A program made the translations under genes and the position numbers. This document shows, piece by piece, positions 2,421 to 19,407 of a stretch of 42,714 nucleotides of DNA; position 1 is the first letter of the stretch, and each line of letters starts with the position of its first letter. This DNA comes from a virus: the IMG/VR virus record IMGVR_UViG_3300027969_000175, positions 1-42,714 of that record; one strand, 5' to 3'. Below the pieces are notes generated by a model. That model did no database searches. It had not been told where the DNA came from and worked only from the letters and a program-made list of their open reading frames with translations.

Positions 2421-2813
2421 ATGGCAACACTAACCAATCTTTATTCCGATTTAGACCTTACATTTAACCTTGTTCCTGGTTCCAGAGATGTTGCTCGGAG
2501 TTTTGATGACCAAGCGGTTATTCGTTCGGTTCGTAATCTTTTATTGACAAATTTCTATGAAAGACCGTTTCAACCAAATCTTGGTGGAAACATTGACAAG
2601 CTTTTATTTGAACCGGCCACCAATTTGACAGCCAGTTTAATTAAAACTGAAATTCAAAATGTTATAACAAATTATGAACCTAGAGCACAAATTGAAGATA
2701 TTACGGTTACTGGTAATATTGATGGAAACTCATTTACGGTCAATCTAACATTTTACATAGGAAATAATACCTTGCCAACATCGGTAAATCTACTTCTTGA
2801 AAGGTCCAGATAA
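2421..2813 (+). CDS. 25: Baseplate wedge protein gp25
   Basis: A 130-aa protein, close to the 132 residues of T4 gp25. It carries the gpW/gp25 family signature: AVIRSVRNLLLTNFYERPF, then QPNLGGNIDKLLFEP (about 32-66), followed by helix-strand segments ending in a conserved I-E-D-I-x-V strand (about 92-97). gp25 binds gp6 in the core of the wedge and belongs to the sheath-initiator family that starts polymerisation of the contractile sheath. The start lies 19 bases after the previous stop, just behind a late-promoter-like core. Its stop overlaps the ATG of the gp6 gene by one base, matching a gp25-gp6 pair made together. Confidence 0.95.
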   Translation: MATLTNLYSDLDLTFNLVPGSRDVARSFDDQAVIRSVRNLLLTNFYERPFQPNLGGNIDKLLFEPATNLTASLIKTEIQNVITNYEPRAQIEDITVTGNIDGNSFTVNLTFYIGNNTLPTSVNLLLERSR

Positions 2814-4888
2814 TGGCATCTTCAAACAACAATATTCAATTAACTGAATTAGATTTCAGTAATATTAAAAACAATTTTATTGCTTATTTGCAATCTCAAG
2901 ATGCCTTTAAAGATTATAACTTTCAAGGTTCTGCCATGTCCGTTCTTTTGGATATTTTGGCATACAATACACAATACAATGCGTACTACTTAAATATGGT
3001 AGCCAATGAGATGTTTTTGGATTCTGCTTTACAAAGAGGTTCGGTTGTTTCTCATGCAAAACTATTAAACTATACACCAAAGTCTGCTATTGCTCCAACG
3101 GCATACATTAATGTTGCATTTACTGGTGTTACCTCCAGTTCTTTTACTTTGCCACGTTATAGTAATTTTATATCGGAATCAGTACAAGGTGTAAATTATA
3201 ATTTTGTTTCTACTGATGCAATAACTGTTGCAAGTGCCAATAATACTGCTAATTTTACAAATTTACAAATTAAACAAGGTATTCCGGCAGTATACACCTA
3301 CACAGTTAATTCCACCACCAATCCAAAATATGTTTTTGAAATTCCTGATTCAAAGATTGATACTACGTCAATTCAAGTTACTGTACAAGAAAATTCATCA
3401 AACACCTCTTATACAACTTATCAACCGGCCGGCAGTTTTTTAACTTTAACACCAACTGACCAAGTATACTTCTTACAAGAATCATTGAATGGCAATTATC
3501 AAATTAGTTTTGGTGATGGCGTATTAGGTTATCAATTACAAGACGGAAATATTGTTGTTGTTTCTTATATTTCAACTGATGGTACCATGGCTTCAGGTGC
3601 AAATAGTTTTGTTTTAATGGATAATATTGGAGGATTTACAAGTTCTTCTGTAACCGGAGTTATCCCTGCATCACAAGGTGGTGACAAAGAATCTATCGAT
3701 TCAATTAAATTTCAAGCACCTAAAGCTTATGCAGCACAAAATCGTGCAGTAACTAAAGAAGATTACATTACTGCTATTCAACAAAACAATTTAGGTTTTG
3801 CTTTTGATTCGGTTTCTGTATGGGGTGGACAAGAAAATGAATCACCAGTTTTTGGTCAAGTGTTTATTTCTATGAAGCCAGAAGGTTCTTATCTTTTAAA
3901 TGATGCACAAAAACAAAGCATCATTAATAATATTATAAACCCAATTAGTGTATTAACAGTAACTCCTACTATTGTAGATCCAGATTTTACTTACATAAAT
4001 GTTTCTGTTAATGTTGTTTATAATCCAAATAAAACAACAAAAACAGCATTGCAAATAGAAACTGGTGTAAAAGCAGCAATTGCAGCATTTGCAAATACTT
4101 CTTTAAATACTTTTAATTCAACATTTAATGGATACGATTTATTAAATACTGTTCAAAGTTATGATTCTTCAATTGTTAATAGTGAATATTCTTTAAAATT
4201 ACAAAAAAGAGTATTTCCAAGTTTAACTAGTTCTTCAACATATAATTTATATTATAATACTCCATTACAAAAAGGTGTATTATTAAGTGGGGTTTCTAGT
4301 TCTCCTGCTTTACAATTTACCAATCCAGCAAACACAGAAAGTATTATTGATGGGGTATTTTACGAAGAAGTTCCAGCAACAACTTATGGTGTTGATACTA
4401 TATCTGTATTAAATCCTGGTTTTGGTTATCAATCTGCCCCAATTATTACTATTTTGGGTGACGGACAAGGTGCGACCGCTCATGCAGAGATTGCTGGTGG
4501 AACAATACAAAACATTGTTGTAGATACTGCAGGTAACAATTATACTACTGCTATTGCGACAATTACTCCAGTCAACGGCGATACAACAGGTCAATTAGGT
4601 GCGGTTGTTGTTAATCTACAAGGTCGTTATGGTACATTAAGAACCTATTATAATAATGCCACGAATGTTAAGACAATACTTGACAATAATGCAGGAACAA
4701 TTGATTATTCTAAAGGTATTATTTCATTGGTATCTCTTTCGCCGGTTAATGTTGATAATGATTTAGGTCAACTTTCTGTTGATGCGACACCAGTATCTTC
4801 TTTAATATCTTCTTCATACAATACTATTTTAACCTTGGACAGCAGCAATCCTACAGCAATCACCGTAAATGTTATTGCTCAAAGTTAA
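2813..4888 (+). CDS. 6: Baseplate wedge protein gp6
   Basis: A 691-aa protein (T4 gp6: 660 aa). The N-terminus has LTELDFSNIKNNFIAYLQ and then FQGSAMSVLLDILAYNTQYN (about 42-61), the hallmark of gp6/J-like wedge proteins. The region around 290-345 (GGDKESIDSIKFQAPKAYAA, AVTKEDY) matches the conserved core of baseplate J-like proteins. Two gp6 copies per wedge form the inner ring that links gp25, gp7 and gp53-type partners. Residues about 527-600 carry a beta-type module (NPGFGYQSAPIITI ... NNYTTAIATITP) that is not part of the family core and recurs in three other proteins here. The start is TAATG-coupled to gp25. Confidence 0.93.
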   Translation: MASSNNNIQLTELDFSNIKNNFIAYLQSQDAFKDYNFQGSAMSVLLDILAYNTQYNAYYLNMVANEMFLDSALQRGSVVSHAKLLNYTPKSAIAPTAYINVAFTGVTSSSFTLPRYSNFISESVQGVNYNFVSTDAITVASANNTANFTNLQIKQGIPAVYTYTVNSTTNPKYVFEIPDSKIDTTSIQVTVQENSSNTSYTTYQPAGSFLTLTPTDQVYFLQESLNGNYQISFGDGVLGYQLQDGNIVVVSYISTDGTMASGANSFVLMDNIGGFTSSSVTGVIPASQGGDKESIDSIKFQAPKAYAAQNRAVTKEDYITAIQQNNLGFAFDSVSVWGGQENESPVFGQVFISMKPEGSYLLNDAQKQSIINNIINPISVLTVTPTIVDPDFTYINVSVNVVYNPNKTTKTALQIETGVKAAIAAFANTSLNTFNSTFNGYDLLNTVQSYDSSIVNSEYSLKLQKRVFPSLTSSSTYNLYYNTPLQKGVLLSGVSSSPALQFTNPANTESIIDGVFYEEVPATTYGVDTISVLNPGFGYQSAPIITILGDGQGATAHAEIAGGTIQNIVVDTAGNNYTTAIATITPVNGDTTGQLGAVVVNLQGRYGTLRTYYNNATNVKTILDNNAGTIDYSKGIISLVSLSPVNVDNDLGQLSVDATPVSSLISSSYNTILTLDSSNPTAITVNVIAQS

Positions 4889-4891
4889 TAA

Positions 4892-7768
4892 ATGATTCCA
4901 GATAATCAAAAAACATCGTTATTAATACCACAACAATTACCCGCATTTATTCGGGATGATTCGTCATACGCCACTTTTCTTGCTTTCTTAGAAGCATACT
5001 ATGAATGGTTGGAACAAACTAACAATGTCACAGACCGTTCAAAAAATATATTAAATTATGCTGACATTGATAATACAACAGAAGAATTTATTAATTATTT
5101 TACTGAAGAATATCTTTCATATTTTCCTCAAGAAATACTTGCAAATAAACCTGAAGTTGTTAAAATAGCAAAACAACTATATCAGTCAAAAGGAACTACT
5201 GCATCATATAAATTTCTTTTTAGAATTCTTTTTAATTCTAATGTTGATTTTTTCTTAACTAAAGATGCTGTATTAAAAGCATCTTCTGGTGTTTGGTATG
5301 TTGCCAAAAACCTCAATGTAAACACCACAGACCAAAGATGGTTGTTAATTAATAATTTACCATTAGGTAGCTTAAGAGTATTTGGGGAAACAACTAAATC
5401 ATTTGCAACAATTGAAAATGTAATATTTACTGGCACAAAAATGCAAGTTTATATTTCTAATCCTGTAAGACAATTTAATTCTGGTGAATATGTTCGTGTT
5501 GTAGATTCCAATAATAAAGATTATATTATTGATATAGACGGAGCAGAATATATACTCCGAGCTAAAATTGTTGGTCAAATTAATCAAATAACAATTGATC
5601 CAAAAAATCAAGGACTATTGTATCAGCCTGGTGACCCTTTAGTTTTTTATGGTGGTTTGAACGATGGTGCAAATACTAGTGCTGCGGCAACAGTTACCAC
5701 TACAACAAAAGGTTCCTTATCTTCTATTCGCCTTGTTACTGGAGGATATGGTTACAGATTTAGTCCCAATACAATAATTGATATAAGTGCAACTGCTTTA
5801 GTATTACCTACTGCGCAAGTTTCTACGGTTGACGCTTCTCCAAATAATACTGCAAACGTATTTTTTGTTCCAACAGACGTTATTGCTACCGTTGCTAACT
5901 CTTACATTGGTAATACTGCAGCAGGTTTTGGACCTCCTCCATTAGGCAATAGTCGTTATACTTTTGCAAACAATTCAAGTGCAAATGCAAATACAACATT
6001 GGCCAATGCGTTTAGTTATATCGAGTTTACAACTTATCCAATTTCTTCAATTTTATTAACATCTTCTGGTACAGGTATTGCAACAACCCCACAAGTAAGT
6101 GCTGTATCATATTATCCAACATTAAGTGGTGGTCAAGGCAATTTGGCCAACTTAGGTATTCTTGCACCAATTCAAATTCAAAGTGGCGGTAAAGGTTATC
6201 GTGTAAACGACACAATTGTATTTACTGGTGGTTCAGGTTACGGAGCAGTTGCAAATGTAGCTTCTGTTAATATTGCAAACGGAAATACAATCACATCAGT
6301 AGTTTATGTTAGAACTAATCCACAATTATTTGCTTTAGGTGGAATGGGTTATCAATATAGTTTACCATCATTATCAGTCAATTCTGCAAACGGTAGTGCT
6401 AGCGGTGCTGTATTGTATGTTCCTGGTGTATTGGGTGACGGTGCAACATTTGCAGCTCAGGCTGACCGAGTTGGTGCAATTACTTCAGTTACCATCACAG
6501 ATGCTGGACAAGATTATAGTTCAGCACCAAATATATCTTTGGCAATACAAGACCTTTCAATAATTACAACATCGACATTAAATTTACCACAAAAAGGTGA
6601 TATTTTATTCCAAGGGTCTAGTTATGCTAGTGCAACATATTCAGCAATAGTTGATTCAACATCAATTTTAAGTTACAATAGTAATTCTTCTCAAATTATT
6701 TACAATGTTCGAGTTTACAATTACACAGCTCGTCCATCTTATAGTTTACCTTTAAAATTAAATTCAAACAATCAACAGTATATAACACTAACAAATTCTT
6801 ACAATGCAATTAATCTTGCAAGTAGATATGATTCTACTGGTGTTTTGACTTACGGTGATGGTAGTGCTTTGGCCACGGCTTCGTTCATTAATGGATTAAA
6901 TAGTAGTTCAGGTCAATATTTAAATACTCAAGGTCAACCAAGCGGATTCTCAGTCTTACAAAACCAAGAATACAATAATTTTACTTACGAACTTACGGCC
7001 GGCATAGAGATTGCAAAATATCGTAAAGTATTATTAGATTTATTACATCCAACAGGTTTAAAAGTTCTTGGAAGATATACAATTGAATCGTTGGCCGAAA
7101 ACGATTTTACAACCTCTACTGGTTATCATTCTGGATTCCCATTAAGTCACTATACTGGCGCACCATCATTTGCCACTATGGTTGCAAACACAAGTTATCC
7201 AAGTACCAATACGGTATCTTTTACCTTTTTATATGGTGCCAATTTACAACAAGTTTTGGTGGTAGGTAACGAACTTTTAATGACTACCGCCAACGGTTTT
7301 GCAGTTCAGTCTGAAATTGCTTCCGTCAATGTAAGTTCAAACACCGTTACTCTATTGGATACTCCTTGGTTATCCTTTGCAAATGTTGCCTATGTAACAG
7401 CAAATGCTGGAAGTAATCGAATAAATATAACATCATTGACTGATTATTATAATATTGTAAATAATGGTAATTATCGTGATCCGTCAAATCCGTTAAAGGA
7501 TATTGTATTTTCTGGTGACACGGTTGTTATTTCAAATAATACAGTAAGGACTGTATCCAATGTAGATTATCAGAACAATGTTGTTTACTTGACCAGTAAT
7601 TTGACGGCATACGCCAATTCTGGTTCATTAATGACAGTTAATCGAACATTTGTTACAAGCAATGTTTACACATACGGTGCAGTAGGAGTTCAATATTTCC
7701 CTGTAATCACTACTGAAGATGGAAATATAATTATAACGGAGAATGGTCTAGAAATTCTATTAGGTTAA
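4892..7768 (+). CDS. Baseplate wedge protein, gp7-like by position
   Basis: A 958-aa protein, comparable in size to T4 gp7 (1032 aa) and in the gp6-gp7-gp8 position. Residues 10-125 form a helical domain (LPAFIRDDSSYATFLAFLEA, YYEWLEQ, then FLFRILFNSNVDFF) seen at the start of large wedge-region proteins of aquatic T4-like phages. Residues about 250-560 contain at least three GxGY-type beta modules (VTGGYGYRF, SGGKGYRVNDTIVFTG, DAGQDYSSAPNISL). The region near 690-760 (IEIAKYRKVLLDLLHPTG, LSHYTGAPSF) looks like a second conserved core. The C-terminus TTEDGNIIITENGLEI is a short repeat-like tail common in phage structural proteins. I saw no cysteine. The gp7 assignment is from order and size, not a diagnostic motif. 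Confidence 0.65.
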   Translation: MIPDNQKTSLLIPQQLPAFIRDDSSYATFLAFLEAYYEWLEQTNNVTDRSKNILNYADIDNTTEEFINYFTEEYLSYFPQEILANKPEVVKIAKQLYQSKGTTASYKFLFRILFNSNVDFFLTKDAVLKASSGVWYVAKNLNVNTTDQRWLLINNLPLGSLRVFGETTKSFATIENVIFTGTKMQVYISNPVRQFNSGEYVRVVDSNNKDYIIDIDGAEYILRAKIVGQINQITIDPKNQGLLYQPGDPLVFYGGLNDGANTSAAATVTTTTKGSLSSIRLVTGGYGYRFSPNTIIDISATALVLPTAQVSTVDASPNNTANVFFVPTDVIATVANSYIGNTAAGFGPPPLGNSRYTFANNSSANANTTLANAFSYIEFTTYPISSILLTSSGTGIATTPQVSAVSYYPTLSGGQGNLANLGILAPIQIQSGGKGYRVNDTIVFTGGSGYGAVANVASVNIANGNTITSVVYVRTNPQLFALGGMGYQYSLPSLSVNSANGSASGAVLYVPGVLGDGATFAAQADRVGAITSVTITDAGQDYSSAPNISLAIQDLSIITTSTLNLPQKGDILFQGSSYASATYSAIVDSTSILSYNSNSSQIIYNVRVYNYTARPSYSLPLKLNSNNQQYITLTNSYNAINLASRYDSTGVLTYGDGSALATASFINGLNSSSGQYLNTQGQPSGFSVLQNQEYNNFTYELTAGIEIAKYRKVLLDLLHPTGLKVLGRYTIESLAENDFTTSTGYHSGFPLSHYTGAPSFATMVANTSYPSTNTVSFTFLYGANLQQVLVVGNELLMTTANGFAVQSEIASVNVSSNTVTLLDTPWLSFANVAYVTANAGSNRINITSLTDYYNIVNNGNYRDPSNPLKDIVFSGDTVVISNNTVRTVSNVDYQNNVVYLTSNLTAYANSGSLMTVNRTFVTSNVYTYGAVGVQYFPVITTEDGNIIITENGLEILLG

Positions 7769-9870: not shown

Positions 9871-11235
9871 ATGGCATATAAAAATATATTAACTTACGCA
9901 GCAAAAGTTTCTCAAGTAGAGCAAACTTACTATTCACCTACTTCGGTATTGCCTATTACTGGTCTGCCAATAAGTTCAATTTATATTTTTCTTTCTCGTA
10001 TTGATCCATGGTTAAATGATTTAAATCCTGATACACCACAACAAACTCAACAATACATTAAAAGTGTTTTTAAAAGTATGTTTGTTGCAAAATTAGTTAA
10101 TCAAAATAATATTTCACCTGTGATAGAAAGACACGATTGGTTATCAGGCACAACATATAATTATTACCAAGATGATATTGATATGTTTCAAGTGGATCAA
10201 AATGGTTTTAATGTTATAAATTATTATATTCGTAATAGTTATGACCAAGTATTTAAATGTTTGTGGAATAATCTTGGCGCACCATCAACAGTAGAACCTT
10301 ATTTTCAACCAGGAAACTATGGAGTAAATAATATATTCAAAGGTTCTGATGGTTACAAATGGAAATATATGTACACCATTGATGTAGGTACCAAAAAAAC
10401 ATTTATGGATGCAACTTGGATACCTGTGCCAGTAGGAGAAAATACCCCAAACCCATTACAAAGTGCAGCCGGATCTGGTGACATTGAAGTAATTAATGTT
10501 ACCAATGGAGGTTCTGGTTATGATTCAGCAAACGGTGCAATTACGGTAACTATTGCTGGTGATGGTACAGGTGCTGAGGGATTGGCAGTAGCAAATGCAT
10601 CCGGATCAATTACCGATATTATTGTAACAAACGCAGGAACAAATTATAGTTATGCGACAGTAACTATTACATCAAGTCTTGGTTCGGGCGCAACGGCCAT
10701 AGCTCCAGTAAGTCCAATCGGTGGCCATGGTTTTGATCCTGTATCAGAATTGGGTGTCAAAGCCGCAATGATTACTGCCGAATTTAATGGTTCTGAAGGT
10801 GGATATATTCCAACTGATGTAAATTATCGTCAAAGTGGTATTTTAATTAATCCAACATCTTTGCAAAATTATCCATATCCGGCTAATGGCCAAATTTATT
10901 CTACCAGTACGGATTTGGTTGTTTCGACAGGCTTTGGTGCATATGTGAGTGACGAAATTGTTTATCAAGGTAGCATAGCTAATCCAACATTTAAGGCAAC
11001 TATGTTGAGTTTTAATTCAACAACCAATGTGGTTAAGTTGATAAATATAACGGGAACACCTCTTGTTAATCAACCAATTTTTGGTGTCACATCACAAACA
11101 GCTCGAACTATTTTAACTTACAATACTCCAAATTTTGTACCATTTTCTGGTTATTTGTCACAAATACAAAACCGAAGTGGTGTTGAAAGAAGTCCGGATG
11201 GAATAGAACAATTTAGATTTGTATTAGGATACTAA
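9871..11235 (+). CDS. 8: Baseplate wedge protein gp8
   Basis: A 454-aa protein beginning MAYKNILTYAAKVSQVE. It contains IYIFLSRIDPWLNDLNPDTP, then a helical segment and ERHDWLSGTTYNYYQDD, and further on YKWKYMYTIDVG with a WIPVP strand, all typical of gp8 of aquatic T4-like phages. It ends in RSGVERSPDGIEQFRFVLGY, also conserved. gp8 is a dimer on the outer wedge that contacts gp7 and gp10 in T4. T4 gp8 is 334 aa; most of the extra length here is an inserted beta module at about 204-277 (VTNGGSGYDSANGAITVTI ... VTNAGTNYSYATVTI). The stop is followed 9 bases later by the next ATG. No clear ribosome site precedes it. Confidence 0.92.
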   Translation: MAYKNILTYAAKVSQVEQTYYSPTSVLPITGLPISSIYIFLSRIDPWLNDLNPDTPQQTQQYIKSVFKSMFVAKLVNQNNISPVIERHDWLSGTTYNYYQDDIDMFQVDQNGFNVINYYIRNSYDQVFKCLWNNLGAPSTVEPYFQPGNYGVNNIFKGSDGYKWKYMYTIDVGTKKTFMDATWIPVPVGENTPNPLQSAAGSGDIEVINVTNGGSGYDSANGAITVTIAGDGTGAEGLAVANASGSITDIIVTNAGTNYSYATVTITSSLGSGATAIAPVSPIGGHGFDPVSELGVKAAMITAEFNGSEGGYIPTDVNYRQSGILINPTSLQNYPYPANGQIYSTSTDLVVSTGFGAYVSDEIVYQGSIANPTFKATMLSFNSTTNVVKLINITGTPLVNQPIFGVTSQTARTILTYNTPNFVPFSGYLSQIQNRSGVERSPDGIEQFRFVLGY

Positions 11236-11244
11236 GGGAATAAA

Positions 11245-14200
11245 ATGTCTTTAAATTTTAACGTTGATCCGTATTATGATGATTTTGATCCTGCAAAAAA
11301 TTACCATCGTATTCTTTTTAAGCCTGGTTACGCTGTTCAAGCTCGTGAATTAACACAAACTCAATCCATTCTGCAAAATCAAATCTCTAATTTTGCCGAT
11401 AACATTTTTAAACAAAATACTCCCATTACTGGTGGCCAAATAACCACCAATTTAAATTGTTTTTATGTTAAATTACAAACAACTTTTAATAATGTAACTA
11501 TTAATCCTACAACTTTTGTTGAAAAATCAATTCAAGATATCACGGGTACTGTTAAAGCTCGTATTATTGCTGCAGCTTCTAGTAGTGGTATTGCTGGAGA
11601 TCCTCCTACAATTATTGTAACATATACATCTGGTGTACAATTTACTAATGGTGATGTAATCTATGATGCAATTTCTTTACAGCCTATAGCGCAAGCAATT
11701 ACTTCTGCTGCTGTTGGTTCAAGTTCTGTTGCTTCTGTTTCTCAAGGTGTATTTTATATTTCTTCTAATTACACCACACCATCCGGTGAAGTAATTACTA
11801 AAGGCACATTTGTACAAGTAAACCCACAGACTGCTATTTTGGACAAATATGATAGTATTCCAAATTTAAGAGTTGGTTTAAATATTGTAGAATCAATTAC
11901 AACATATTTAAATGATTCTTCTTTATTGGATCCTGCTATTGGTGCTTCAAATTATCAAGCTCCTGGTGCAGACCGTTATAAAATTGATTTAGTATTAGAA
12001 ACAAGACCATTATTATTAGGTAATGATGATTCATTTATTGAATTAATTCGTGTAATTAATGGTGAAGTTCAAACAATTGTAAACGGAACAGTATATAACG
12101 TTATTGATGATTATTTTGCAAAACGTGATTATGAAACCAATGGTGATTACATTGTTAATGATTTTAGATTAACTCCAAAAGCAAATACGGCAGACAGTTC
12201 AAATAATACTTACATCATGAGTGTTGGTAAAGGTATTGCATATGTTCACGGTTATCGTATTGAAAATCAAGCGCCAATTGATTTAACAACAAATCGCTCT
12301 AGAGTTACCGTATCACAAAATAATAATCCAACATATATGTCTTATGGTAATTATTTTTATGTTGACACAGTTCGTGGTGCAAATGGACAATTCTTTGACA
12401 CAACCACATATTCAAATGTAGACTTTCATTGTGTAACTGTGGCAAACGTAAGTGTTGCAAGTTCTAGTTCTTATTCTTCAACTGTTGTCGCAACAGGTTA
12501 TATTCGTGGATTAGAATTTGACCACTCTACTGGTACAACTGCAAATTCTTATGTGTATCGTATGTATGTTGATGGTCTACAAGCAAATAGTATTAGCGCC
12601 AATGTAACAGCGGCAACACCTAATACTGTAACGTTTCCAGCTTACTTCTCTGCATCAAACACTGCATATCCAGGCATGACCATTACCATCTACAATGGTA
12701 CAGACGCCGGTGATAGCCGCACAATTGTTGCTTACAATGGTGTTTCTAAAGTAGCAACAATCAATCAAAATTGGACAACAACTCCCGATACAACATCACA
12801 GTATACATTAAATTTTGATATTAAATATGCAAATACTGTGGTGTTTGCAAATAAATCTTCTTTCCCAGCACAAATATATTCTACCGCTCTTATTGATGAA
12901 TCAAGCAAAGCGAATGGTGTTCCATTAGGTTTAACAACATTACAGAACCCAACATATCCAGAATTAATTTTCCCTGTTGGAAATCCTTATGTTGCCAACT
13001 TAACAAATACAACTTACACCACACAACAATTGTGGAGAAATGTTGGTTTTACTTCTACTGGTGTTGGTTCTACGGTTTCAACAGCACTACAATATACTGG
13101 CGACTATTCAAATGTTATTCGTCATATTGGTACCGGCGGTTCAACCCTTTCATCTTCATTAGTTAAACAAAATTTTGTTATTGTTGTTACTGCTGTTGGT
13201 GGAGGATGTACATTAAATGTGGGTGAAGTTGTTCCTTGGACAACAACAGGAAGAACAGTAGTTTTAAGTTCAGATGCTTCAACAGCAACATTACAAGCAT
13301 CAGATGTTGGTGGTACATTTACAGCAACTATTCTTGTTACTGTTTACGCAGTTAATGCTGATAATACTACTCACTTGTTGAGAAATAAAACATTAATAAC
13401 AGGAAATACAACAGTTATTAATTCCAGTAATACTCAAGTTGCAACATACACTTATGTAGATAATACAGCAACAACATCAAAAGGTCAAGTTTATATACAA
13501 AATGCTGGAATAGTAAATCCAGGAAAACCACAAAGTTTATACTTATCAGATGTTAAAAATATTGTTCGTGTTATTGATACCGGCAGTTCAGGCACTTTAC
13601 CAACTGCGGCTATGTTGGTTTCAGGTTCCTCATACGATATAACCAATAGATTTAGTTTTGATAATGGCCAAAGAGATGGATTTTATGACCATGCTTCGAT
13701 TACATTAAAACCTGGATATCCTAAACCTTCTGGCAATATGTTGGTTGTTTTAAATTATTATCAACATACTGGTGGAGATGGATATTTTAGTGTACAATCT
13801 TATTTGAATGAAGCTTATCAACAAATTCCACAATATACTAGTAAAGCTGGTATAGTATATGCACTTAGAGATTGTTTAGATTTTAGACCAGCAAGATTGA
13901 ATGCTCAAACATTAATGACATTCCGTTATTCAAATAGTGGAGATACAACAAAGTATGGAGTATTTCTACCAATAGATATGTCCACATTTACAGGATATTA
14001 TAATTATTATTTGGGTAGAAGGGATAAATTAGTTTTAACAAAAGATAAGAGTTTTAAAGTTATTGAAGGTACTCCTTCGATTACTCCTTTATTCCCCGCT
14101 CAGCCAGATGGTGCACTTGTAATAGCAAATTTAACTTTGGATCCTTATACTGGTTATTTACCAACAGAAGCACCTTCTGGTTCCGTGCCAAATCTATCGA

Positions 14201-17200
14201 TTGAAAAAGTTAAACACAAGCGTTATACAATGGAAGATATTGCAGGATTAGAAAAACGTATTAACAATGTTGAGTATTACGCATCTTTGAGCCAATTAGA
14301 GCAGACTGCAACTTCTCAACAAATTTCTGATGCTTATGGATTAAATCGATTTAAAAACGGTATTATTGTTGATGACTTTTCTAGTTATGCAACTGCCGAT
14401 ACTTTAAGTCAAGATTATTCTGCTACAATTAATCGCCGTGAAAGAAGAATGACGGCATCACAAAATGTTAAAAATTATCCACTAAAAGCTTCAGCTTTAG
14501 CTTACAACATGGGATTGCCTTCTTCAACAACCTCAAGTGCATTAGGTTACAATATTAGTTATGATGGTTATATAAATTATTTTACTTTGCCTTATACAAC
14601 AGCAAATGTGTTTACTCAAAAATTGGCTTCTAGAACAACCAATGTTAATCCTTTTGCTTATGTAACTAGAGAAGGAACACTATCTTTATCTCCAAATATG
14701 GATAATTGGGTAGACACAAATTGGTCTCCATCATTATTAATTACTGATCCAAATTTACAAGTATTCCAAGCTAGTGAAAATATTAGCGTACTATCTTCTG
14801 GTGATTGGAAAACAGTTTCGGGAACAACAACTAGTGATACAACTTTCACAGAAGGACATGGAATTAATCCAAGTCCATTTGGTTTTGTTGGTTTTTCAAC
14901 TTCAACAAGTGTAACAACTACACAACAAGTAAAAACAGACATTCTTGGACCATACGATAAAATTGGTAGCACATATTCATTGAATAATGGTTACATTACT
15001 GACATTTCTATTTTACCATATATTAGACCACAACAAGTTGTTGTTCGTGCTCAGAGTTTGTTAACAAATTCTCCAGTTACAGCATATTTTGACAACGCAA
15101 GTATTACAAATTATATTCGTAAAACAAACGTTATTGAATTAACAAATGTTACAGGTGCATTTAAACAAGATGATGTATTAGGTTATTATTCAAGTGGTAT
15201 ATTTACTCCGACTGCGAGAGTTGTTGGAGTATACAATTATGCAAATACAAATAGTACAAGACTATATGTTGCTGCCGATCCTTCTTCCACAACATATAAT
15301 AATTCTTTATCTTTGGTAAATGGTTTCTTTGATGTTAACGGAATTTATCAAGGTAACACTGCAAGAGGTACAATAGCCTCGACCAAACATTATGGTGGCA
15401 GAATTAGAAACGCCAATACAACAACCTCGGTTCAATTGTCTGTATTGGCATCAACAACAGATGATTATTATACTGGTAACACAATTTATATTTGTGCCGG
15501 TACAGGTAAAAATCAATCTGCAACGATTTCTAATTATTATGGTGCAAACCAAGTTGCGATGTTATCTTCTTCTATTACTAGTGCTAATGGTGATGTTTAT
15601 TCTATTGGAAGTTTCTCAACTGATGAAACTGGTGCTTTCTATGGTATCTTTAATTTACCAGATAATACTTTCCATACTGGCGAAAGAGTATTACGAGTAG
15701 ATAATAGCACAGGAGGAAACCAAACTTCAGCAACAACATATGCAGAAGCAACCTATTATGCTGAAGGTTTACAAACAACTCAACAGCGTGTAGATTTTGG
15801 TGCTTCTCCTGCTGGCGCCAAAGGTACATTTACTCAAACGTCACAACAACAAGTAACATCGGTTTCTGTATCTCAAAGTCCTTGGGATCCAGTTGCACAA
15901 GGATTTATTGTATCTAAGAAAAATTATCCAAATGGTATTTTCTTAAATTCTATTAAATTATTCTTTAGGACTAAACCCACCACAGAAAATGTTCCTGTAA
16001 CATTATCGATTGTTGGCACATTAAATGGTTATCCTAATGGTGATACATTGGATCATTCTGTTGTTACTTTAACACCAGATATGGTTAACACATCTGAAAC
16101 TCCACAATATTTGGATAACACAACTTCAACAACATTCCAATTTTCTGTGCCGGTCTATATTCAATCTGATGTATTATATACATTTATTGTAAAGACTGAT
16201 AGTAATCAATACACATTATGGACTGCCGCTAACGGAGATACGGCTGTAGGTTCTTCTGCCAAGAATTTGCCAACGGATAGTACACCTTCTGTTGTTACTA
16301 AAATTGGTGGTGCACCTTATGTTGGAGGTTTGTTTATATCTCAAAATTCTCAAACATGGTCAGCTGACCAAAACCAAGCATTAATGATGGTTGCAGACCA
16401 ATGTGTATTTACAACTAGTGCAACACCACAGATTCCTTATCTAATACCAAAATTAAATCCACAAAGAGAGTTAATTGAACAGTCTGTTGATTATTATACA
16501 AATGCAAACAATGTTTCAAATACTTTGAATTCAATTTCAAATACACCAACATATGTTGACGCATTTAACATTACAACAACAGATTTTGTTCCCACAACAA
16601 CACAAGTTTCTTACAATTATGTTGCTACTTTAGCTAGTGGTTCAAGTGCTGGTTATAAAAATATTACACCTGGAAAATATGGTACTGCAACTGCAGATGA
16701 CATTTATTTGGATGATGGCAATGGCGAGCGAGTAATTTTACCATATTCAAATAATTCATTTATATTAAATGCAACATTATCATCTACTGATCCTTATGTT
16801 ACTCCAGTAATTTCTGATGCCGGTTTAAGTGCTTATGCAATTAATTGGAACATCAATAATTGTTCATTATCAAATAGTTTGATTCAGTTAGCTTCTGGTG
16901 GAACAGGTTACAGCAATAATGCAAATCTTTCAGTAACAATATCTGCTCCAACAGGATATGGTGGTTCTTCTGCTATTGCTGCAGCCAATGTACAAAATGG
17001 AGTTATTAAATCAATCTATATTGTTGATGGTGGTTCAGGTTATTTGACAACACCAACAATTACAATTACTGATGCCAATACTACTCCAGGTACTGGTGCT
17101 TCTGCCAATGTAATTGGTGAAACTTCTCAAGTTGGCGGTCCTGCTCTTACAAAATATGTAACAAGACCAATTCAATTAGCACAAGGTAACGATTCTGGTG

Positions 17201-17571
17201 ATTTGAATGTTTATTTAACTGCTTATAGACCACCAAATACAGATATCAATGTTTATTATAAAATATTGAATCGTAATGACACTCAAGGTCTTAATAATAG
17301 TTCTTGGCAGTTAATGACAAAAATTAATAACAGTAATACACAATTTTCATTAACTAGAACAGATACTTATGAATACGCTTTTGCTCCTGGTACAGCAGGT
17401 GTTGACCAAGGTTATGTAAGTTATGTAAGTTCAACAACTGGTCAAACATATACAACATTTAGTCAATTTGCAATTAAGATTGTTTTAACAACAACCGACA
17501 GTACTTTTGTTCCATATGTAACTGATATGCGAGCTCTTGCTTTACCGTCTAACGTAAATACAACATTCTAA
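11245..17571 (+). CDS. Giant DUF4815-type baseplate/fibre structural protein
   Basis: A 2108-aa protein with AAGGGA just before the ATG. The N-terminus has VDPYYDDFDPAKNYHRILFK, then PGYAVQARELTQTQSILQNQ, the usual opening of DUF4815 virion proteins of aquatic T4-like phages. Residues about 462-525 hold a small module ending VAYNGVSKVATINQNW and TPDTTSQYTL that recurs in the beta-helix fibre. Around 988-1020 is KHKRYTMEDIAGLEKRINNV, then EYYASLSQLEQ, a conserved helical segment of the family. SPWDPVAQGFIVSKKNYPNG at about 1546 begins a conserved C-terminal region. A GxGY module (ASGGTGYSN ... DGGSGYLTTPTITI) sits at about 1877-1960. A role as a gp9/gp10-like peripheral baseplate part that holds fibres is plausible from position. 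Unlike the other large fibres it has several scattered cysteines. Confidence 0.8.
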   Translation: MSLNFNVDPYYDDFDPAKNYHRILFKPGYAVQARELTQTQSILQNQISNFADNIFKQNTPITGGQITTNLNCFYVKLQTTFNNVTINPTTFVEKSIQDITGTVKARIIAAASSSGIAGDPPTIIVTYTSGVQFTNGDVIYDAISLQPIAQAITSAAVGSSSVASVSQGVFYISSNYTTPSGEVITKGTFVQVNPQTAILDKYDSIPNLRVGLNIVESITTYLNDSSLLDPAIGASNYQAPGADRYKIDLVLETRPLLLGNDDSFIELIRVINGEVQTIVNGTVYNVIDDYFAKRDYETNGDYIVNDFRLTPKANTADSSNNTYIMSVGKGIAYVHGYRIENQAPIDLTTNRSRVTVSQNNNPTYMSYGNYFYVDTVRGANGQFFDTTTYSNVDFHCVTVANVSVASSSSYSSTVVATGYIRGLEFDHSTGTTANSYVYRMYVDGLQANSISANVTAATPNTVTFPAYFSASNTAYPGMTITIYNGTDAGDSRTIVAYNGVSKVATINQNWTTTPDTTSQYTLNFDIKYANTVVFANKSSFPAQIYSTALIDESSKANGVPLGLTTLQNPTYPELIFPVGNPYVANLTNTTYTTQQLWRNVGFTSTGVGSTVSTALQYTGDYSNVIRHIGTGGSTLSSSLVKQNFVIVVTAVGGGCTLNVGEVVPWTTTGRTVVLSSDASTATLQASDVGGTFTATILVTVYAVNADNTTHLLRNKTLITGNTTVINSSNTQVATYTYVDNTATTSKGQVYIQNAGIVNPGKPQSLYLSDVKNIVRVIDTGSSGTLPTAAMLVSGSSYDITNRFSFDNGQRDGFYDHASITLKPGYPKPSGNMLVVLNYYQHTGGDGYFSVQSYLNEAYQQIPQYTSKAGIVYALRDCLDFRPARLNAQTLMTFRYSNSGDTTKYGVFLPIDMSTFTGYYNYYLGRRDKLVLTKDKSFKVIEGTPSITPLFPAQPDGALVIANLTLDPYTGYLPTEAPSGSVPNLSIEKVKHKRYTMEDIAGLEKRINNVEYYASLSQLEQTATSQQISDAYGLNRFKNGIIVDDFSSYATADTLSQDYSATINRRERRMTASQNVKNYPLKASALAYNMGLPSSTTSSALGYNISYDGYINYFTLPYTTANVFTQKLASRTTNVNPFAYVTREGTLSLSPNMDNWVDTNWSPSLLITDPNLQVFQASENISVLSSGDWKTVSGTTTSDTTFTEGHGINPSPFGFVGFSTSTSVTTTQQVKTDILGPYDKIGSTYSLNNGYITDISILPYIRPQQVVVRAQSLLTNSPVTAYFDNASITNYIRKTNVIELTNVTGAFKQDDVLGYYSSGIFTPTARVVGVYNYANTNSTRLYVAADPSSTTYNNSLSLVNGFFDVNGIYQGNTARGTIASTKHYGGRIRNANTTTSVQLSVLASTTDDYYTGNTIYICAGTGKNQSATISNYYGANQVAMLSSSITSANGDVYSIGSFSTDETGAFYGIFNLPDNTFHTGERVLRVDNSTGGNQTSATTYAEATYYAEGLQTTQQRVDFGASPAGAKGTFTQTSQQQVTSVSVSQSPWDPVAQGFIVSKKNYPNGIFLNSIKLFFRTKPTTENVPVTLSIVGTLNGYPNGDTLDHSVVTLTPDMVNTSETPQYLDNTTSTTFQFSVPVYIQSDVLYTFIVKTDSNQYTLWTAANGDTAVGSSAKNLPTDSTPSVVTKIGGAPYVGGLFISQNSQTWSADQNQALMMVADQCVFTTSATPQIPYLIPKLNPQRELIEQSVDYYTNANNVSNTLNSISNTPTYVDAFNITTTDFVPTTTQVSYNYVATLASGSSAGYKNITPGKYGTATADDIYLDDGNGERVILPYSNNSFILNATLSSTDPYVTPVISDAGLSAYAINWNINNCSLSNSLIQLASGGTGYSNNANLSVTISAPTGYGGSSAIAAANVQNGVIKSIYIVDGGSGYLTTPTITITDANTTPGTGASANVIGETSQVGGPALTKYVTRPIQLAQGNDSGDLNVYLTAYRPPNTDINVYYKILNRNDTQGLNNSSWQLMTKINNSNTQFSLTRTDTYEYAFAPGTAGVDQGYVSYVSSTTGQTYTTFSQFAIKIVLTTTDSTFVPYVTDMRALALPSNVNTTF

Positions 17572-17572
17572 T

Positions 17573-17797
17573 ATGATAGTTCAAATACCTGGCACCAGTT
17601 TAGTTCGTGATACAACCTCTATGGCTTTGATTAATCAAGACCAAAATGGTTTAAATGAATACATGAAAAAAAGAAAGCTTTTGGAAAGTCAAAAAAACGA
17701 AATAAATAATATGAAATCAGATATTTCTGAGCTTAAAGGTGATATGCAAGAAATCAAACAATTAATTTTAAAATTAGTGGAAAAGTCAAATGGCTAA
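17573..17797 (+). CDS. Small coiled-coil protein, 74 aa
   Basis: A short gene that starts 1 base after the giant protein's stop and overlaps the next gene by 8 bases. Residues 1-30 contain VQIPGTSLVRDTTSMALINQ, a segment resembling small proteins found beside baseplate genes in aquatic T4-like phages. Residues about 30-72 are Lys/Glu-rich with heptad spacing of hydrophobics (MKSDISELKGDMQEIKQLIL), a strong coiled-coil prediction by eye. It could be a chaperone or linker for the neighbouring fibre. The function is not known to me. Confidence 0.8.
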   Translation: MIVQIPGTSLVRDTTSMALINQDQNGLNEYMKKRKLLESQKNEINNMKSDISELKGDMQEIKQLILKLVEKSNG

Positions 17798-18938
17798 TAC
17801 AATATCAACTCTTAGTTACGCCAATACTTTTGGAGATTGGGTAGTTGCAACAAATTTTTTAATTAATCAAAATAACCAAGCTTCAACTAATAGTTTTACA
17901 AAAGCAGCGGGTACATACTACTTCAATGATCCATCATTAGGACTGTCTGTTGCAAATAATGCAATTATTGGTGGTGGACTTCAAGTTGTCGGTACAGGTT
18001 CTTTTGCAACAATTCAAAATGGACTTACTGCTGGACAAGGTACTTTTACAAATACAGGAACAAGTTTAACTGTAACTGGTTCTTCGGTATTTTCAAATAC
18101 CATGTTTGCAAATGGAAATACTGGACTTGCTGTAGCCAATAGTGCTACGGTAGGAACTAATTTTACAGTAGGTGGCGCAACTTCTTTAAATACTTTAACT
18201 GTTTCAAATGGTGCATCGTTTTTAGGAACAACAACCTATAATGGTAGTTTGATTGTTGGTGGTGCTACCGCTTACAATTATAATACTGGCCAATGGAATA
18301 TTAGTATTACAGGAACCTCAGGTAACGCAAATACTGTAACCAATGGTATTTACAGTAATTTATTCTATTCCGATCCAACTTGGTTGACAGGTATTGCAAA
18401 TACTAAGATTATTGGTACAATTCAACCAAGTCAAATTGCTGGTGGTAGCGGTAGTGGTTTAGTTAATACTATTACAGGAACCACTAATCAAATTGTTGCA
18501 AATACCGGTAGTGGTAACATACTATTATCTACTCCACAGAATTTGGACACGGCCGCCAACTTTAGGATTGGTTCTCTTGGTGTTGGTACTGCGGCTTCAG
18601 GTACTTCTGGTGAAATCCGTGCTGTTAATAACATTACCGCATATTATTCTGATGACAGACTAAAAACTCGTTTAGGAAATATTGATGGTGCTTTAGCCAA
18701 AGTAATGAGTTTAAATGGATTTCATTATGAAGCTAACGAAACCGCACAAGCATTAGGTTATACTGTTAAACCAGAAGTTGGTCTTTCTGCACAAGAAGTG
18801 CAGGCAGTATTACCTGAGGTTGTGGTGCCCGCTCCAATTGATGAGAAATATTTGACAATTCATTATGAAAGAATTATACCACTTTTAGTTGAAGCCATCA
18901 AAGAACTTCAAGCGGAAGTGGAAAGTCTTAAAAAGTAA
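17790..18938 (+). CDS. Tail fibre with C-terminal S74 intramolecular chaperone
   Basis: A 382-aa fibre. The N-terminus TISTLSYANTFGDWVVATNF, then LINQNN, is a fibre anchor also seen in aquatic T4-like phages, followed by Gly/Thr/Asn-rich beta repeats (SVANNAIIGGGLQVVGTGSF). The C-terminal 105 residues are a peptidase S74/endosialidase-type chaperone domain: YYSDDRLKTRLGNIDGAL, then VGLSAQEVQAVLPE, then LTIHYERIIPLLVEAIKELQ. The domain trimerises the fibre and then cuts itself off. Ser287 and Lys292 fit the Ser-Lys pair, so cleavage just before Ser287 is likely, leaving a mature fibre of about 286 residues. The start overlaps the previous gene. Confidence 0.9.
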   Translation: MANTISTLSYANTFGDWVVATNFLINQNNQASTNSFTKAAGTYYFNDPSLGLSVANNAIIGGGLQVVGTGSFATIQNGLTAGQGTFTNTGTSLTVTGSSVFSNTMFANGNTGLAVANSATVGTNFTVGGATSLNTLTVSNGASFLGTTTYNGSLIVGGATAYNYNTGQWNISITGTSGNANTVTNGIYSNLFYSDPTWLTGIANTKIIGTIQPSQIAGGSGSGLVNTITGTTNQIVANTGSGNILLSTPQNLDTAANFRIGSLGVGTAASGTSGEIRAVNNITAYYSDDRLKTRLGNIDGALAKVMSLNGFHYEANETAQALGYTVKPEVGLSAQEVQAVLPEVVVPAPIDEKYLTIHYERIIPLLVEAIKELQAEVESLKK

Positions 18939-19007
18939 AAATTCGATTTTTTGCGTTCCGGCCCCAGAATTCTCCGGACGCTATCCTAGAGTTGGAAAAG
19001 CGAATTT
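18939..19007 (+). terminator. Structured intergenic element, possible terminator or RNA
   Basis: A roughly 70-base fold starts right after the S74 fibre stop codon. An outer stem pairs AAATTCG (18939-18945) with CGAATTT (19001-19007) and extends, after one A-G mismatch, with TTTT (18947-18950) to AAAA (18996-18999). Inside is a strong hairpin, GCGT+CCGG (18953-18961, one bulged T at 18957) with CCGGACGC (18974-18981) and a 12-base loop. A weak third stem, TCC/GGA, is possible at 18984-18996. TTTT follows at 19010-19013. The hairpin is much richer in G+C than its surroundings. It may end the upstream transcript, protect its 3' end, or be an independent RNA. No energy calculation was done. Confidence 0.55.
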
Positions 19008-19032
19008 ACTTTTAAGCTGAGGTAGGTATTGA

Positions 19033-19040
19033 CATAAATA
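19033..19040 (+). promoter_or_regulatory. Late-type promoter core CATAAATA for the adhesin block
   Basis: CATAAATA lies in the 133-base gap between the structured element and the 111-aa protein gene. T4 spacing predicts a start near 19046 and a leader of about 26 bases containing AGGA (19061-19064), 7 bases before the ATG at 19072. Leader, ribosome site and a preceding stem-loop together make this one of the better supported late promoters in the window. A partial TTGACA-like stretch just upstream (TTGACATA) overlaps it and is not needed for a late promoter. Confidence 0.6.
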
Positions 19041-19071
19041 TCCAATAGAATAATGACTTCAGGAATTTTAA

Positions 19072-19407
19072 ATGCCAGCCGCCTATCAAAATCTCTACAT
19101 AGAACAAGGAACTTCATTCAGTACGACCATCACTTTAGATGACGTATATGGTGACATCTATGACTTGACTGGATATACAGCAAATAGTCAAATTCGTAAA
19201 TCTTATTATTCAGCCAATGCTACAGCAGCATTTCTTGCAATTGTTAATGCCAATACAGGCACAGTTTCATTGTCCATGAGTACTCCTACAACAGCCAACA
19301 TAGCAGCTGGACGTTATGTTTATGATACAATCATTAAGACGCCAGGTGGTGATGCCACCAGAATTTTAGAAGGTGTCATTGATGTATCTCCATCAGTTAC
19401 GAGGTAA
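19072..19407 (+). CDS. Small beta-sandwich virion protein, 111 aa
   Basis: Begins MPAAYQNLYIEQGTSFSTTI and continues TLDDVYGDIYDLTGYTANSQ. This E-Q-G-x-S-F-x-x-x-I-x-L ... D-L-T-G-Y pattern resembles small Ig-like proteins and the N-terminal part of baseplate upper (BppU-type) proteins in other phages. The rest alternates short beta strands (VSLSMSTPTTANIAAGRYVY, then DTIIKT). It has a good AGGA site, is the first gene after the likely late promoter, and is followed 2 bases later by a 79-aa gene. It is probably an adaptor at the base of the fibres that follow. Confidence 0.75.
   Translation: MPAAYQNLYIEQGTSFSTTITLDDVYGDIYDLTGYTANSQIRKSYYSANATAAFLAIVNANTGTVSLSMSTPTTANIAAGRYVYDTIIKTPGGDATRILEGVIDVSPSVTR

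Follow-up and report, generated by a model that had tools for sequence, protein, structure and literature searches.

A fixed-length, sequence-conserved intergenic element at the borders of the baseplate module in uncultured T4-like phages

Results

The window, that is, the whole stretch of 42,714 nucleotides analyzed here (IMG/VR record IMGVR_UViG_3300027969_000175), is a piece of the structural region of a T4-like phage. Its baseplate genes comprise a gp25-like gene (2421-2813), a gp6-like gene (2813-4888), a wedge protein gene (4892-7768), a baseplate wedge subunit gene (9871-11235), and a gene for a DUF4815 protein of 2108 amino acids (11245-17571), which occupies the place of VrlC in related phages. 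A gene for a 74-amino-acid protein lies between the DUF4815 gene and the plus-strand gene upstream of the locus under study (17790..18938), which encodes a tail-fibre-type protein with a C-terminal Peptidase_S74 (endosialidase chaperone) domain. Downstream, also on the plus strand, a gene of the LtfC-like, L-shaped tail fibre assembly family (19072..19407; PHROG 1084 and 3304, with Pfam LtfC below cut-off) opens the adhesin block, and the adhesin genes come after it. A search of the window for tRNA and tmRNA genes found none.

The open reading frames at 17790-18938 and 19072-19407 are separated by 133 bases (18939-19071), and this is, as an earlier note on the sequence had stated, the only long gap in the window, all other gaps between called genes being 37 nt or shorter. 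The note had described positions 18939-19020 as GC-rich, a description that fits the hairpin core of approximately 31 nt (61% GC, 98th percentile) but not the interval as a whole (42.7% GC, 80th percentile). It had also placed a late promoter just downstream, where we find the late-promoter-like sequence CATAAATA, a T4-type late promoter core (19033..19040, plus strand). ATAAATA motifs at 2411, 9861, 32075, 36027, and 36556, probable late promoters directly 5' of structural genes, are not accompanied by the element described below.

We searched IMG/VR with both flanking proteins and then read the same junction in the relatives, most of which carried a near-identical block there. Further copies were collected with three location-blind pattern scans, a gp25-protein search, and a profile, giving 152 distinct element sequences from IMG/VR contigs, with more than 100 contigs of uncultured T4-like phages as carriers. 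Alignment of the relatives defined the natural unit as positions 18938..19013 on the plus strand, 76 nt whose first base is also the last of the upstream TAA stop codon and which end 19 nt before the late promoter core (profile match to the IMG/VR relatives, E 4.5e-22; alignment A1). The claim that a nonrandom, distinct element lies at the border of baseplate and adhesin genes ahead of a late promoter thus held.

All parts of the element are given here on the plus strand. The left arm (18938..18963) has the consensus AAAWTTCGAWWTTTTGCGTTCCGGCC, derived by counting alignment columns in 60 and 77 sequences, and its first 15 nt form a near-palindrome centered on CG. The right arm (18996..19013) has the consensus AAAAAGCGAWTTTACTYYT and reads AAAAGCGAATTTACTTTT in the window. 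Between them lies a middle (18964..18995) that is variable in sequence and fixed in length, so that the consensus of the element can be written as AAAWTTCGAWWTTTTGCGTTCCGGCC, about 31 variable nt, and AAAAAGCGAWTTTACTYYT. An internal hairpin (18953..18981) spans left arm and middle, its 5' arm GCGTTCCGG (18953-18961) being near-invariant in the relatives and its 3' arm CCGGACGC (18974-18981), which lies in the middle, being variable. At element positions 74-75, within the right arm, the first 60 distinct copies are split between CC (ACTCCT, 33 copies) and TT (ACTTTT, 27 copies), with no mixed forms.

The length of the element hardly varies: 136 of the 152 distinct sequences measure 76 nt, 8 measure 77 nt, and 6 measure 75 nt. 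Two of the pattern scans, both of which permitted the inner gap to vary by 26 to 28 bases, gave the same picture, the span between the pattern ends being 61 nt in 55/55 matches of the first scan and 54 nt in every match listed for the second, bar one of 55 nt. The second scan is the cleaner test of length, because the shortest gap allowed in the first equals the observed gap.

Between phages, the arms are 85 to 88% identical and the middle 54 to 58%, where fourfold-degenerate sites of gp25 reach only 44 to 46%. Because a pattern search in part selects for the very arms that it retrieves, we repeated the comparison on the subset fetched by gp25 protein alone, in which the arms are 74 to 81% identical compared with 46 to 48% at the fourfold sites. 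That the arms are far more alike than the fourfold sites of gp25 indicates purifying selection on the element.

The position of the element is nearly as constant as its length. In 129 of 132 cases, the upstream stop codon ends between -10 and +2 nt from where the element starts, most commonly overlapping the first one or two A residues, and the genes to which these stop codons belong are unrelated to each other (S74 fibres, hub/lysozyme-type proteins, and others). Of 138 cases, 136 have a TAAATA motif in the 100 nt downstream (3 have one upstream), usually 2 to 21 nt from the element end; two loci (L159 and L162) have the element without TAAATA. The place behind a stop codon and before a promoter could partly be a product of compact genomes. 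The copies share a length of 75 to 77 nt, nearly always 76, as well as their arms, their place behind a stop codon, and their place before a late promoter, and these are the properties that selection has kept.

The downstream gene is gp25-like in 105 cases, LtfC-like in 32, and unassigned in 4, numbers that mix pattern-fetched and protein-anchored loci, so that the ratio of 105 to 32 is not a census. Three records (G003, G007, and G013) hold two copies about 18 to 22 kb apart, one at each junction, with the gp25-site copy before the baseplate genes and the LtfC-site copy behind them; in these records, the copies therefore bracket the baseplate module. Two partial copies lie elsewhere. On the minus strand of L237 (about 1500-1575), a divergent partial copy sits directly 5' of a phage tRNA-Met gene, and its altered left-arm bases are able to pair with its own right arm. 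In G003 (IMGVR_UViG_3300027747_002198), a half copy consisting of the left arm only (136210; E 3.3e-5) lies behind a gene end, where, within 136120-136330, it has a CCTGGA...TCCAGG hairpin on one side and, following it, a long, strong GGCCCAAA/TTTGGGCC hairpin with a T-run, so that this gene-end region combines the left arm with a terminator-like structure.

The element is absent from 23 of 75 gp25 junctions and from several LtfC junctions, and at most junctions without it the stop codon directly abuts or overlaps TAAATA. Together with the five window ATAAATA sites that lack it, the empty gp25 junctions mean that the element is dispensable. A comparison of L006 with L029 (around 2300-2945) is a clean case of fibre-module exchange: the flanks are 97.5% and 96.3% identical, the exchanged block comprises the element, present in one phage and absent from the other, together with a swapped S74 domain, and homology resumes within a few bases of the element end. 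Upstream of gp25 in L241, the right arm alone is left, as if the remainder had been deleted between two similar arms. On a tree of the element, which is noisy, being built on 76 nt, at least 10 switches between sites are needed, where shuffled labels require 29 and the minimum would be 1, and we read this as inheritance mostly by site with some transfer.

Searches beyond IMG/VR returned no copy. No relevant match was found among the 4227 covariance models of Rfam, also at permissive thresholds; none when two element variants were compared by BLAST with 50,697 annotated phage records; none when a profile was run over the complete genomes of Melnitz, HTVC008M, Mosig, DLP6, and pf16, five cultured T4-like phages that include the relatives nearest in gp25 and LtfC; and none by an exact-pattern scan of GTDB genomes. 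A BLAST search of plasmids gave two matches of 24 to 26 nt, which we attribute to chance. At the orthologous gp25 and LtfC junctions of Melnitz, TATAAATA is present and the element is absent. As far as sequence comparison goes, the patch in the gap represents a noncoding, lineage-specific 76-nt element of T4-like phages that had not been recorded before.

The earlier note had suggested that the patch folds into a structured RNA, with a closing stem AAATTCG/CGAATTT around the internal hairpin. The inverted repeat of this stem does exist in the window, but it is missing from the minimum free energy structure, and its pairing is not kept in the relatives: positions 4 and 67 of the stem, both A/T-variable, combine freely (TT 28, AT 26, AA 12, TA 11), which means that the stem is not maintained. 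The interval 18939-19020 folds at -17.2 kcal/mol, compared with -15.9 +/- 3.1 for shuffled controls (z -0.43; minus strand, z -0.10), and 77 nonredundant copies average z +0.13 (plus strand) and +0.11 (minus strand). For compensatory changes, whose absence the note had listed, along with a fold no better than shuffles, as refuting its reading, the outcome was also largely negative: no pair in a 150-sequence alignment covaried beyond a tree-simulated null (a home-made, R-scape-like test). High MI/APC scores were confined to neighboring or same-side columns, and none cleared that null. A long-range GCG...GCG covariation seen in L233 and L270 is anecdotal.

The internal hairpin, by contrast with the closing stem, is real, a 36-nt hairpin here ranking among the strongest 2% of all 36-mers of the window. 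It is not followed directly by a T-run and is omitted by a scan for terminator-like sites, in agreement with the earlier view that this is not a plain terminator. With the 5' arm fixed, the 3' arm is more complementary to it than its own shuffles are (mean z -0.59, t -4.4), and CCGG occurs in the 3' arm of 25 of 77 copies, compared with 3% expected. Complementarity is greater at the adhesin junction (z -1.07; CCGG in 13/20) than at the gp25 junction (z -0.46; 11/54), where many copies have a weak hairpin or none. Perfect stems have been re-formed with other bases or in another register in L107, L110, and L309. The small hairpin thus appears to be favored yet optional, being partly kept, mainly at the adhesin junction, and the element is conserved as sequence and length, not as an RNA fold.

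Discussion

Our data establish that the junction between baseplate and adhesin genes carries an element with conserved arms, length, and position. We tentatively favor the interpretation, at somewhat less than even confidence, that it serves as a transcription-unit boundary signal at both ends of the baseplate module and is read mainly through its sequence. In this scenario, the element would end or process the upstream transcripts, or else insulate the late promoter behind it, and its reader would be a protein or the phage-modified transcription machinery acting mainly via sequence, while the small hairpin may be an auxiliary feature of the adhesin junction. A role at RNA 3' ends or as an insulator is suggested by the position of the element, and recognition by a protein, possibly as DNA, by the A/T-only variation of the arms together with the absence of covariation; the two are compatible with each other. 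The lack of a U-tract at the right end, and a hairpin that many gp25-site copies have lost or keep in weak form only, do not fit an ordinary intrinsic terminator.

More speculatively, the element may represent an undescribed class of phage boundary element, a fixed-length, sequence-recognized 76-nt site that ends or insulates late units without the hairpin of an intrinsic terminator. If so, an undescribed factor that recognizes the site, encoded by phage or host, would have to exist in this widespread lineage of uncultured T4-like phages.

Another hypothesis, which we regard as rather unlikely, is that the element is in essence a protein-binding DNA site, in which the AT-rich near-palindromic half-sites AAAWTTCGAWWTTT and AAAAGCGAWTTT, with centers 57 bp apart, are the target of a phage- or host-encoded protein controlling the adjoining late promoter. 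Arm positions 4, 11, and 67 vary only between A and T without complementary change, a pattern typical of the recognition of DNA and not of an RNA stem; the spacing of the half-sites is fixed, and the late promoter lies within about 20 nt. However, the distance to TAAATA, at 2 to 21 nt, shows no helical phasing, and many late-promoter-like sites have no element.

Exchange of gene modules raises the question of whether the element itself gives rise to such exchange, as a recombination site or mobile cassette bordering the hypervariable cluster of host-recognition genes, a scenario that we consider quite improbable. The swap between L006 and L029, the empty sites at both junctions, the lone right arm of L241, and the site switches on the element tree would all fit with it. 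Yet the location-blind scans found the element almost only at two orthologous junctions, which is unlike a freely moving element, and no transposase or recombinase is linked to it; furthermore, a target-site duplication would be indistinguishable from the TAA common to stop codon and promoter, and the tree has only those 76 nt to draw on.

Still less probable, in our judgment, is a structured noncoding RNA, a small RNA derived from a 3' untranslated region, or a transcript stabilizer, a reading close to what the earlier note had considered possible. What survives of it is the small hairpin, which is above chance mostly at the adhesin junction, with perfect stems re-formed in L107 and L014 and a one-base loss that closes a bulge in L309 and L313. 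The near-zero folding scores on both strands, the lack of pairs exceeding the tree-based null, the unkept closing stem, and the Rfam result all argue against a distinct structured RNA. Finally, we reject with near certainty that the -1 frame (KIRNFAFRPKN...SKKRIYS) is translated, be it as a short extension or as a small gene. Roughly 50 of 60 copies leave this frame open, and a slippery-looking AAAAAAG stands at the end of the S74 gene in the window. However, stops in the frame are no rarer than in column-shuffled alignments (10 versus 10.9), in the arms the first codon positions vary and the third positions do not, showing no synonymous bias, and the slippery run is absent from the end of many upstream genes.

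The element is of interest because it lies where T4-like phages swap host-range genes; in related pelagimyophages, a hypervariable host-recognition cluster is located directly behind the VrlC baseplate gene (PMC7029224). The element is widespread, strongly selected, and under an extreme length constraint, and it has been missed by gene callers, Rfam, and terminator scans alike. Identifying its reader would show how these phages separate the expression of baseplate and adhesin genes, and the element may provide a simple marker of module borders in viral metagenomes.

In comparison with known systems, the element is nearly always found 5' of a late promoter of the T4 type, which has the form TATAAATA in Melnitz and in cyanomyophages (PMC9004378, PMC3037559), whereas most late promoter-like sites carry no element. 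It resembles the intrinsic (Rho-independent) terminators of T4-like phages in lying directly behind stop codons and before the next promoter, with a GC hairpin in a subset of copies, but it differs from them in that its hairpin has no T-run and its arms are conserved as sequence, and a scan for a hairpin plus T-run passes it over. The PeSLs of T4-type phages, mobile regulatory cassettes, reportedly pair a terminator-like stem-loop with an early promoter and vary in sequence. Like them, the element belongs to a short intergenic unit of stem-loop and promoter at T4-type module borders and may be tied to module shuffling; in contrast to PeSLs, its promoter is of the late type (TAAATA) and separable, its length is fixed at 76 nt, its sequence is strongly conserved, and its hairpin is optional.
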